From assembly GCF_000336755.1 (NCBI RefSeq), contig NZ_AOLK01000011.1, positions 98,443 through 162,442 on the forward strand: DNA of 64,000 bases, written 5' to 3'. Origin of the DNA: Haloferax elongans ATCC BAA-1513. Its GTDB lineage: Archaea > Halobacteriota > Halobacteria > Halobacteriales > Haloferacaceae. Each line of letters starts with the position of its first letter. Positions within the stretch are counted from its first letter, which is position 1. Shown piece after piece: positions 49,136 to 52,470 of the stretch. Below the pieces are notes generated by a model that saw only the letters and a list, made by a program, of their open reading frames with translations, had not been told where the DNA came from and ran no database searches. A program made the position numbers and the translations under genes.

Positions 49136-49149
49136 TGAACAGCTGTTCA
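49136..49149. promoter_or_regulatory. ArsR operator palindrome
   Basis: TGAACAGCTGTTCA is a perfect 14-base palindrome, 12 bases before the arsR ATG and just after a TTCATATG promoter element (49130-49137). This is where an ArsR-type repressor would block transcription of its own operon. Confidence 0.7.
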
Positions 49150-49160
49150 ATCATTCAGGT

Positions 49161-49553
49161 ATGTCCGAGTCCACGAGACTCCGAAACCTCATCGAAGACG
49201 AAGTCGGGTCGTGTTGTGACGCCGACGTCGAAGCGCGCCTCGACCGACTCTCGGAGCTTGTCACGCACGTTCCGAGTGACTACGACGCCGACTTGGCGGC
49301 GATGAAAGCGCTCGGAAACGACACGCGCTACCAGGTCGTTCGCTTGCTCACCGCCGCCGACGAACTCTGTGTCTGCGAGATTACGCCACTCGTCGACGTG
49401 AGTGAGAGTGCCGTCAGTCACGCGCTTTCCGACCTCACAGATGCGGGACTCGTCACCCGGCGTAAGGAGGGAACGTGGCGCTACTACCAGTCGACAGCAC
49501 TCGCAGAGCGCCTCGTCTCCGCTCTCGACGCCGAACGAGGTGACGACGAATGA
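49161..49553 (+). CDS. arsR: ArsR family metalloregulator
   Basis: 130 residues from ATG 49161. The winged helix contains the ArsR metal site DELCVCEI (Cys72 and Cys74 of LCVC), and CC at 18-19 may add ligands. ArsR repressors release DNA when As(III)/Sb(III) binds. It overlaps the next gene by four bases (ATGA). It is the first gene of a four-gene run. Confidence 0.9.
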   Translation: MSESTRLRNLIEDEVGSCCDADVEARLDRLSELVTHVPSDYDADLAAMKALGNDTRYQVVRLLTAADELCVCEITPLVDVSESAVSHALSDLTDAGLVTRRKEGTWRYYQSTALAERLVSALDAERGDDE

Positions 49554-50008
49554 GCGATGCGACTCCGACCGACCCGACACGCGTCGCGTTCGTCTGCGTC
49601 CAGAACGCCGGCCGAAGTCAGATGGCCACCGCGTTCGCCCGGCGCGAACAGGCCGCCCGCGACCTCGACGGCCGCATCGACATCGTCACTGGCGGGACCG
49701 ACCCGGCCGACCACGTCCACGACGAGGTCGTCGACGTGATGGGTGAGAAGGGGTTCGACCTCGCCGACGAGACGCCGCGAGCCATCTCGCAAGACGAGAT
49801 TATGGACGTGGACATCGTCGTGACGATGGGCTGTTCGGCAGAGGGAATCTGCCCGATGACGTGGCGCGGTGACGCCCGCGACTGGGACCTCGACGACCCC
49901 GACGGCCGCGACCCCGACGAGGTCCGGGCGATTCGCGACGACATCGAATCTCGGGTGTTGGCGTTGTTCGACGAACTCGTCGACGACGACGGAGGTGTCG
50001 ACCGATGA
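49550..50008 (+). CDS. arsC: Arsenate reductase (low-molecular-weight phosphatase type), copy 1
   Basis: 152 residues. The P-loop CVQNAGRS (Cys16, Arg22) is the LMW-PTPase/thioredoxin-type ArsC active site. A later pair, Cys95 and Cys101 (VTMGCSAEGICP), matches the redox cysteines that form the disulfide cascade, so this copy is likely a true arsenate reductase. An aspartate in RDWDLDDP serves as acid. Starts with a 4-base overlap with arsR. Confidence 0.85.
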   Translation: MSDATPTDPTRVAFVCVQNAGRSQMATAFARREQAARDLDGRIDIVTGGTDPADHVHDEVVDVMGEKGFDLADETPRAISQDEIMDVDIVVTMGCSAEGICPMTWRGDARDWDLDDPDGRDPDEVRAIRDDIESRVLALFDELVDDDGGVDR

Positions 50009-50442
50009 GCGACGACCCGACACGCGTCGCGTTCGTCTGCGTCCAGAACGCCGGGCGCAGCCAGATGGCGACCGCCTTCGCCGAACGCGAGCGCGAACGC
50101 CGTGGCCTCGACGACGACGTGGAAATTCTCACTGGCGGTACTCATCCCGCCGACGACGTCCACGACGTGGTCGTCGACGTGATGCGCGAGGAAGAGTTCG
50201 ACCTCGGCGACCGCGAACCGCAGGCCGTCTCCACCGAGGCGCTCGAATCGTGCGACATCGTCGCCACGATGGGGTGTTCGACGCTCGAACTCGACACCAG
50301 TGCTGGCGTCGAGGTGCACGACTGGGCGCTCGACGACCCACACGGCCAAGACCTCGACACGGTGCGCGAGATTCGCGACGATATCGCGGGTCGCGTGACC
50401 GCCCTATTCGACGACCTCGACTCGGCGGATACGACACAGTAG
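50005..50442 (+). CDS. ArsC-like phosphatase, copy 2 (redox cysteine lost)
   Basis: 145 residues, a paralogue of the gene just upstream. CVQNAGRS (Cys12, Arg18) is kept. The second region reads ATMGCSTLELDTSAG, so the second redox cysteine is missing and this copy cannot run the full arsenate-reductase cycle as usually drawn. The two genes share 42 identical bases (49570-49611 and 50013-50054), evidence of recent duplication or gene conversion. It overlaps copy 1 by four bases. Confidence 0.82.
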   Translation: MSDDPTRVAFVCVQNAGRSQMATAFAERERERRGLDDDVEILTGGTHPADDVHDVVVDVMREEEFDLGDREPQAVSTEALESCDIVATMGCSTLELDTSAGVEVHDWALDDPHGQDLDTVREIRDDIAGRVTALFDDLDSADTTQ

Positions 50443-50443
50443 C

Positions 50444-51526
50444 GTGGCGATTGCAGAGCTCTGGGCACTCGAAATGGTGCTCGCGGCATTCGCAGGCGGC
50501 GCGTTCGGTGCTGCCATCGGCGCACTTCCATCGTTCACGCTCGCAGGTCTCGTCGTCGTCATCGGCGAACTCTACGGTCTCGTCCGGCGGACGACCGACG
50601 TGGGGTTCGCTGCTGTCGACCTCACGGGTGCAGTCGGCTTGGGCGTCGTGTTCGGTCCCCACGTTGCTTTCGGCGGCGGGGCGGCGGCAGTTGCCTACGC
50701 GGCGAAGCACGAGCCCCTCGACTTCGACTCCGAGTACCACCCCGCGAAAGATGTCACTCGCGGACTCGGCAGCGCTCCCGACGTGCTGTTCGTCGGCGGC
50801 GTCTTCGGTATCTTCGGCTACTGGGTTGCGACCCTCGCTGGGACGCTCGGTCTCCCAACCGACCCTGTCGCACTCGCCGTCGTCGTCTCGGCGTTGGCCC
50901 ACCGTCTCGTCTTCGGGTACAGCCTCATCGGCACTGTTCCCGACCGATTGATGGATATGTCACCGTTCGAACGCGGCGAGCCGAGACACAGCGCACAGAC
51001 CGACGGCGGCCACGTCGACAGCGAGCACACGTCGGACACCGGCCGATTCGCGGTCGAACCGTGGCTTCCGTATCAGTACCGCTGGGCCGACGTGGTCGGA
51101 CTCGGTGCCGTCGTCGGCATCTTCGCTGCCTACATCGCGTATCTGACCGGGAGCGCGTTTCTCGCGTTTGGACTCAGTGTCGTCGCGCTCGTCTACATCA
51201 ACGCCGGCACCCCGAAGATTCCTGTGACACATCACATGTCGCTTCCCGCCAGTACTGCCGTCCTCGCGGCTGTCGGAAGTCCGCTCGGCTCGCTGACGCC
51301 CACTGCGGTCGCTAACGCACTCCCGCTTTCGGAGGCGCTGCTTCTCGGTGCGGTCTTCGGGGCGCTCGGTGGCTTCTTCGGCGAGGTCACACAACGAATC
51401 TTCTACGCACACGCCGACACCCACCTCGACCCGCCTGCGGCGAGTATCGTCGTCACGTCGTTCGTCATCGGCGTGCTTGCGCTCGTCGGCGTCTTCCCTG
51501 GGTCGGCATGGGTGCCGCTTCCGTAA
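50444..51526 (+). CDS. Unrecognised polytopic membrane protein in the ars operon
   Basis: 360 residues from GTG 50444, one base after the preceding stop. About ten hydrophobic helices in two halves, separated by a charged linker (about 170-205, ERGEPRHSAQTDGGHVDSEH). Gly/Ala-rich helices such as GGAFGAAIGALPSF and GAVFGALGGFFGEV recur. It is not ArsB or Acr3 by any motif I know. Position suggests an arsenic-related exporter or permease, but a role outside arsenic is possible. Confidence 0.75.
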   Translation: MAIAELWALEMVLAAFAGGAFGAAIGALPSFTLAGLVVVIGELYGLVRRTTDVGFAAVDLTGAVGLGVVFGPHVAFGGGAAAVAYAAKHEPLDFDSEYHPAKDVTRGLGSAPDVLFVGGVFGIFGYWVATLAGTLGLPTDPVALAVVVSALAHRLVFGYSLIGTVPDRLMDMSPFERGEPRHSAQTDGGHVDSEHTSDTGRFAVEPWLPYQYRWADVVGLGAVVGIFAAYIAYLTGSAFLAFGLSVVALVYINAGTPKIPVTHHMSLPASTAVLAAVGSPLGSLTPTAVANALPLSEALLLGAVFGALGGFFGEVTQRIFYAHADTHLDPPAASIVVTSFVIGVLALVGVFPGSAWVPLP

Positions 51527-51696: not shown

Positions 51697-52470
51697 ATGG
51701 CACGAAAAGACCACTACTACAACAAGGCCAAACAAGAGGGCTATCGCGCTCGCTCGGCCTACAAGCTCAAACAACTCGACAGCGAGACGGGACTGTTCGG
51801 TCCCGGCAACACGGTCGTCGACCTCGGTGCCGCCCCCGGTGGGTGGCTCCAAGTCGCCTCCGAGAAGGTCGGCGACCACGGGAAAGTCGTCGGTGTCGAC
51901 CTCCAGCGAATCCGCGACATCGACCACCACAACGTCGAGACGGTTCGCGGTGACATGACCGAAGACGACACGAAGGAGAAACTGAAGGACATCGTCGGTG
52001 AGCAGGGCGCTGACGCCGTCGTCTCTGACATGGCTCCGAACATGACCGGCGAGTACTCGCTGGACCACGCCCGCTCTATCTATCTCGCTCGGCAGGCGTT
52101 CGAAGTCGCACAGGAACTGCTCGCGACCGGCGGCGACTTCGCCGTGAAGGTGTTCGACGGACAGGACCTCGCGGACTTCCGCGCCGACATGGAACCGGAG
52201 TTCCAGTACGTCCGGTCGATTCGCCCCGACGCCTCCCGTGACAGTTCGTCCGAGCAGTACCTCGTCGGCAAGCACTTCCTCACCGCGCCCGTCCGAAAGG
52301 GCGACGAAGTCGAAGTCGAAATCGTCGACGTCGGCAGCGAGGGCGACGGCATCGCCAAAGTCGAAGACTTCACCGTGTTCGTCCCCGGGACCGAAACGGG
52401 CGAGACGCCGCTGGTTCGCATCACGGACGTGAAGCCGCGGTTCGCCTTTGCAGAGCGCGTCGACGACTGA
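51697..52470 (+). CDS. rlmE: 23S rRNA 2'-O-methyltransferase RlmE (FtsJ type) with TRAM domain
   Basis: 257 residues. SAM site DLGAAPGGW (42-50) and the K-D-K-E catalytic set: Lys23 (RSAYKL), Asp111 (VSDMAPN), Lys151 (AVKVF) and a Glu near 186. The C-terminal TRAM domain (about 195-255) is an archaeal addition that binds RNA. It methylates the ribose of a 23S rRNA uridine. Confidence 0.93.
   Translation: MARKDHYYNKAKQEGYRARSAYKLKQLDSETGLFGPGNTVVDLGAAPGGWLQVASEKVGDHGKVVGVDLQRIRDIDHHNVETVRGDMTEDDTKEKLKDIVGEQGADAVVSDMAPNMTGEYSLDHARSIYLARQAFEVAQELLATGGDFAVKVFDGQDLADFRADMEPEFQYVRSIRPDASRDSSSEQYLVGKHFLTAPVRKGDEVEVEIVDVGSEGDGIAKVEDFTVFVPGTETGETPLVRITDVKPRFAFAERVDD

Follow-up and report, generated by a model that had tools for sequence, protein, structure and literature searches.

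In a 64,000-nt stretch of Haloferax elongans DNA (the window), an ars operon closes with the gene for a membrane protein that, by sequence, is a member of the ars-linked branch of a haloarchaeal family of predicted glycerol transporters. The family is already known, as an uncharacterised predicted glycerol transporter; its ars-linked branch is real and conserved and, to judge from the sequences and their neighbours, most likely an arsenite facilitator. To our knowledge, few protein families are known to let arsenite out of the cell: ArsB, Acr3, a few MFS proteins and the aquaglyceroporins. We consider it probable that the window protein is a passive As(OH)3 facilitator, derived from a predicted transporter for glycerol encoded beside the glycerol kinase gene glpK and by now reserved for As(OH)3. 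If so, arsenic would leave the cell by a route that has no kinship with the known pumps.

The operon consists of four genes placed head to tail at positions 49161-51526: arsR, arsC1, arsC2 and the membrane-protein gene. The arsR/arsC1 and arsC1/arsC2 pairs each overlap by four bases, and the membrane-protein gene, a forward-strand reading frame of 360 codons with a GTG start, begins at 50444, one base past the end of the arsC2 stop codon at 50442, in agreement with the original prediction. An FtsJ-type methyltransferase gene follows at 51697, 171 bases past the membrane-protein gene, and we infer that the ars operon stops ahead of it. The flanks of the ars genes include a histidine kinase with a HisKA_7TM Pfam match and, on the opposite strand, a sliding clamp, assigned by eye. 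The features of the locus are:

49136-49149, no strand: TGAACAGCTGTTCA, a perfect 14-base palindrome upstream of arsR, proposed ArsR operator
49161-49553, + strand: arsR, ArsR/SmtB-type metalloregulator with an ELCVCE motif (NF033788, PF01022)
49550-50008, + strand: arsC1, candidate arsenate reductase of the LMW-phosphatase fold, type A (CVQNAGRS, GCSAEGIC; PF01451, 98.4 bits)
50005-50442, + strand: arsC2, ArsC of the LMW-phosphatase fold, type B (SCDIVATMGCSTL, third Cys shifted upstream; PF01451, 94.5 bits)
50444-51526, + strand: 360-residue membrane protein without Cys, proposed As(OH)3 facilitator (from family, gene context, clade, AlphaFold model and literature)

The regulator is matched by NF033788 with 82.2 bits (cut-off 55) and by PF01022 with 42 bits (cut-off 22), and its Cys pair lies in the ELCVCE motif; in Escherichia coli ArsR, a motif of this type binds As(III). 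The palindrome occurs once in the window. Of 36 distinct arsR genes, 18 have a related element, AT[ACT]TGA[AG]N5-6T[TC]CA, within the 90 bases ahead of them, compared with 0.04% of shuffled sequences; the pattern was picked after inspection of the sequences. The 18 loci that bear it include some with Acr3 and some with the channel gene. We propose from these sequences that the palindrome is the ArsR operator. A scan for sigma-70 promoters and terminators gave nothing usable for an archaeon.

Searches of Pfam, NCBIfam and PDB sequences with the single membrane protein returned no match, and neither did the same searches with an alignment of 62 family members. At E ≤ 10 the protein is matched by none of PF00230 (MIP), TIGR00832, PF01758 and PF02040 (ArsB), and an NPA motif is absent from its sequence. 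It contains no cysteine. The original prediction described a protein free of ArsB and Acr3 motifs, which Pfam and NCBIfam bear out, and called it unrecognised, which holds for the Pfam, NCBIfam and PDB sequence searches but not for the literature, where the family has been described (PMC3102087). The ten helices it counted correspond to ten hydropathy peaks and to about ten membrane segments, several of them broken, in the AlphaFold model (mean pLDDT 93.2, pTM 0.92). The model also shows the anticipated two halves, and an internal repeat is supported by a single profile comparison, in which residues 72-153 align with about 263-342 (probability 85%, E 5.8e-6), GPH facing THH and DPVA facing DPPA. 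Motifs conserved in the family are GPH, PVTHH, E-x3-R and FYAHxDTHxDPPA. The linker, at residues of about 165-212, does contain the histidines ascribed to it, but we rejected it as a likely metal site because it is modelled with low confidence (pLDDT below 50 at 190-195) and is not conserved.

A Foldseek search with the model found nothing significant (best E 0.037). In VIA-align, the top seven rows were urea transporters (Z 7.1-7.8, 188-203 residues aligned), followed mostly by Amt/Rh proteins; these alignments cover the whole model and are weak, all with Z below 8, where according to the tool's note a likeness may reflect shared arrangement alone. With a remote relative from actinobacteria, truncated at the N terminus, partial matches to TRIC channels rank first, and the alignments of greatest length over the full span (153-170 residues) are those with urea transporters, at rank 10-17. 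A two-fold, channel-like architecture is likely, and a relationship to urea transporters, given the weak resemblance, possible.

The available text of PMC3102087 describes a haloarchaeal membrane protein adjoining glycerol kinase, predicted in 2011 as a new glycerol transporter, and one haloarchaeon in which an MIP replaces this protein beside glpK. The family is of the rrnAC0550 type, and we linked the window protein to it through the glpK context of its homologues. The accessible portions of the Hfx. volcanii literature do not name the glpK neighbour, and those of the open-access literature, including PMC12029414, PMC3600143 and PMC6205960, yielded no link of the family to ars genes. The nearest relatives of the window protein are haloarchaeal, and genome-wide searches detected homologues in 134 of 170 genomes from its own taxonomic family and in 292 of 392 from its order. 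Our neighbourhood sample, extended by 40 further members of our own choosing and 63 named from a separate collection, comprised 127 distinct proteins once short and duplicate ones were dropped; it is not random, because the best matches to the window protein were favoured. Within it, glpK lies directly upstream of the family gene in 90 cases (glpK alone in 81, glpK with arsR/arsC downstream in 9), 15 members lie downstream of arsC and 22 have other contexts. The window protein is about 39-57% identical to its glpK-type relatives over the full length and at similar size; the second copy in its own genome (L051) is glpK-linked and 54% identical to it. A frequent haloarchaeal layout sets glpA-glpB-glpC divergent from glpK and the family gene. 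Further afield, the family gene precedes dhaK (dihydroxyacetone kinase) and dhaM-type genes in a Bacteroidetes bin (L106), and in Actinomycetaceae bins (L132) it clusters with an FGGY pentulose/polyol-type kinase, a protein like RpiB/DerI (erythrulose-phosphate isomerase) and a relative of glycerol-1-phosphate dehydrogenase.

Seven bins of Balneolaceae, halophilic Bacteroidota (L075, L076, L084, L088, L090, L095 and L128, the last a fragment), also carry copies, which share about 50% identity with the window protein. No glpK or arsR/arsC was detected near the six that could be typed, which suggests that these copies came by transfer from haloarchaea. In L090, an ArsM-like match lies about 300 bases away on the opposite strand.

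All 15 family members found downstream of arsC form one clade, with support of 100/99, in a 78-row tree built without long-branch rows; a fuller but quicker tree of 127 rows gives the same ars clade plus four divergent rows. Members of the clade span several taxonomic families, with Haloglomus irregulare and two Halosimplex species among them; the arrangement is also found in Haloarcula pellucida and Natronobiforma cellulositropha. At twelve positions, for example A77G, A107G and L254A, the 15 ars-linked proteins differ from the 90 linked to glpK, in each case by a mild substitution.

Both ArsC copies have the LMW-phosphatase fold, with a P-loop Cys and two more Cys. The best NCBIfam match of arsC1 is to the glutathione/glutaredoxin arsenate reductase, at 64.8 bits and under the cut-off of 157.6; arsC2, at 56.1 bits, is likewise under its cut-off. 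In haloarchaeal ArsC proteins the third Cys stands six residues past the MGC Cys (type A), eight ahead of it (type B, TMGCSTL) or at both places, and the window carries one protein of type A and one of type B in tandem. Thirty loci were fetched with an ArsC1 query, and an ArsC2 query added further loci to the typing. Ten of the 30 carry Acr3, each of these ten together with arsR and arsC; in three the Acr3 was verified by TIGR00832 over its cut-off, one haloarchaeal Acr3 scoring 369 bits. Among 80 distinct ArsC matches typed in the fetched loci, 42 are of type B and 34 of type A or AB. The 42 type-B proteins have Acr3 as a neighbour in 15 cases, the window-type membrane protein in 17, neither in 10 and both in none; the 17 is enriched, because the loci were partly fetched through the membrane protein itself, and the zero is the informative figure. 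An exclusive pairing of type-B ArsC with the channel gene was rejected, since Acr3 is its partner about equally often.

Acr3 occurs in 2 of the 12 genomes with an ars-linked copy, in both elsewhere in the genome; in a sample of the order, a hand count of matches at E < 1e-50 gave 115 of 195 genomes. It is rarer in the genomes with an ars-linked copy (Fisher p 0.005, six shared genomes removed from the order sample), with the p values optimistic because the sampled genomes are related to each other. In the window genome, no match to MIP/aquaglyceroporins, ArsB or Acr3 was found anywhere. Its single SBF match was rejected as an Acr3, being PanS/BASS-like, and of its nine ArsA_ATPase matches the one scanned (L161) passes the general GET3/ArsA cut-off but falls far short of those specific to ArsA. 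ArsC-like proteins are present in 183 of 195 genomes of the order, and several of the genes (for example, L187, L191 and L192) have no arsR or transporter gene nearby; being nearly universal and partly isolated, some of these proteins may not be arsenate reductases. In the window's own genus, two arsC1 homologues (L170 and L171, 84%) stand without arsC2 and the membrane-protein gene, which is therefore not obligatory beside ArsC. At L170 the FtsJ-like gene seen in the window comes after arsC, as though arsC2 and the channel gene had been gained or lost together.

Gene context supports well the assignment of the membrane protein as an arsenite exit protein in the usual Acr3 slot; substrate, direction, passive mechanism and regulation of the membrane protein by ArsR we infer. 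Counting against this reading are the sub-cut-off scores of both ArsC copies, the arsC homologues that lack the gene beside them, the presence of Acr3 at two Halorussus-type loci of the family and in 2 of the 12 ars-linked genomes, the weak structural matches and the mildness of the 12 diagnostic substitutions. The window gene would have arisen by duplication of a haloarchaeal glycerol transporter gene beside glycerol kinase, and a channel for small, uncharged, polyol-like molecules would by now be reserved for As(OH)3 and, probably, Sb(OH)3. Arsenate would enter through phosphate transporters and be reduced to As(III) by ArsC; ArsR would sense As(III) and release the operon; and As(III) made inside, at a higher concentration than outside, would flow downhill through the channel. 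Glycerol channels are known to conduct As(OH)3 (PMC1440775 and PMC6205960, in the text available). As to the site of origin, in two genomes (L052 and L053) a channel-bearing ars cluster near a glp cluster adjoins an IleS-type gene, in L052 lying between this gene and glpABC, and in other genomes glpK and the transporter gene adjoin the same IleS-type gene. This neighbour may mark the place at which the ars-linked copy originated.

A second association with ars genes has glpK first, then the family gene, then arsC and/or arsR, as seen in Haladaptatus (L077, L078, L085 and L089) and Halorussus (L079) and, in the same order, in L146-L150, L152, L153 and L156. Because the gene order differs, it probably arose separately. 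At two loci of the Halorussus type (L079 and L147), exceptions that fall outside the type-B count, the family gene, arsR and Acr3 occur together. The order with glpK first could mean that both functions use one channel, or that detoxification was placed beside a route of arsenite entry; on either reading the family would pass arsenite.

The earlier expectation of a pump, and of a new type of arsenite exporter, survives in part: no known exporter was found in the genome, and gene context places an exit protein in the Acr3 slot, but the protein is of a kind already known from the predicted glycerol transporter family, and the evidence favours a downhill facilitator. Acr3 is a secondary transporter and handles As(III) in a Cys-dependent manner. 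An energy-coupled As(III) exporter, such as a proton antiporter, would suit a protein that holds the position of Acr3; we nevertheless judge it unlikely, because the relatives are predicted to carry the uncharged solute glycerol, urea and ammonia channels provide the best, if weak, full-length structural likeness, and the window protein has no Cys. The same three observations lead us to a channel rather than a pump.

The cargo might also be methylated arsenicals or antimonite instead of inorganic arsenite. In 2 of the 15 ars-linked loci, arsM lies between arsC and the membrane-protein gene; one of these arsenite methyltransferases was scanned (351 bits against a cut-off of 263) and shares 62% identity with the other. 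At the remaining ars-linked loci, the window included, no arsM was found in that slot and the constant partner is ArsC, which makes this reading very unlikely. (At the arsM locus L135, an FtsJ-like gene lies downstream as in the window, by eye.) We hold it just as improbable that the protein is a plain second facilitator for glycerol or dihydroxyacetone whose place in an ars operon is irrelevant to arsenic. Its 54% identity to the glpK-linked copy and the ties of the family to polyol metabolism would fit such a role, but in one well-supported clade the link to ars genes persists in different genera and families, type-B ArsC pairs with either Acr3 or this gene, and the genomes with an ars-linked copy usually carry another family member (at least two in 9 of 12). 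All 12 also carry glpK, so a search for a glpK-less genome with an ars-linked copy, considered as a test, gave no separation.

With the passive As(OH)3 facilitator as the preferred reading, a broader proposal seems to us evenly balanced: that a non-MIP channel family with a urea-channel-like two-fold repeat took on the role of glycerol facilitator and one of its branches became an arsenite exit channel replacing Acr3, convergent with AqpS, and, jointly with this, that the branch is a candidate for haloarchaeal arsenite export without ArsB. In Halobacterium NRC-1, arsB has no role in arsenic resistance and a non-ArsB transporter has been proposed (review PMC3600143, in the sections available). 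If the proposal is true, a second, unrelated glycerol-type channel would mean that the chemical likeness of As(OH)3 to glycerol was put to use on at least two occasions, and the 2011 prediction would gain an easily scored arsenic phenotype as a test.

Among known systems, the window protein shares full-length homology, similar length and the same motifs with the glpK-linked transporter (rrnAC0550-type, from the text of PMC3102087 at hand), and differs from it in its separate ars clade, its 12 diagnostic positions and its place beside arsC rather than glpK. It occupies the same slot, beside the same types of ArsR and ArsC, as haloarchaeal ACR3 in arsR-acr3-arsC operons, but unlike ACR3 it has no TIGR00832 or PF01758 match. 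In its model, full-span VIA-align rows and an internal repeat recall urea transporters and Amt/Rh proteins, although Z is at most 7.8 and neither a sequence match nor a significant Foldseek match accompanies the likeness. MIPs in ars operons have been counted in a bacterial survey (PMC4435449, as far as accessible). AqpS, from the ars operon of Sinorhizobium meliloti, makes cells sensitive to outside arsenite but resistant to the arsenite that they themselves produce from arsenate (PMC6205960 and PMC1440775, in the portions available). As with AqpS, so far as these sources describe it, a glycerol-type facilitator would stand in place of ArsB/Acr3 in an ars operon, after arsenate reduction; AqpS is an MIP, whereas the window protein has neither an MIP match nor an NPA motif, so the likeness would be convergent. 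The membrane protein would then work like AqpS from outside the MIP family.
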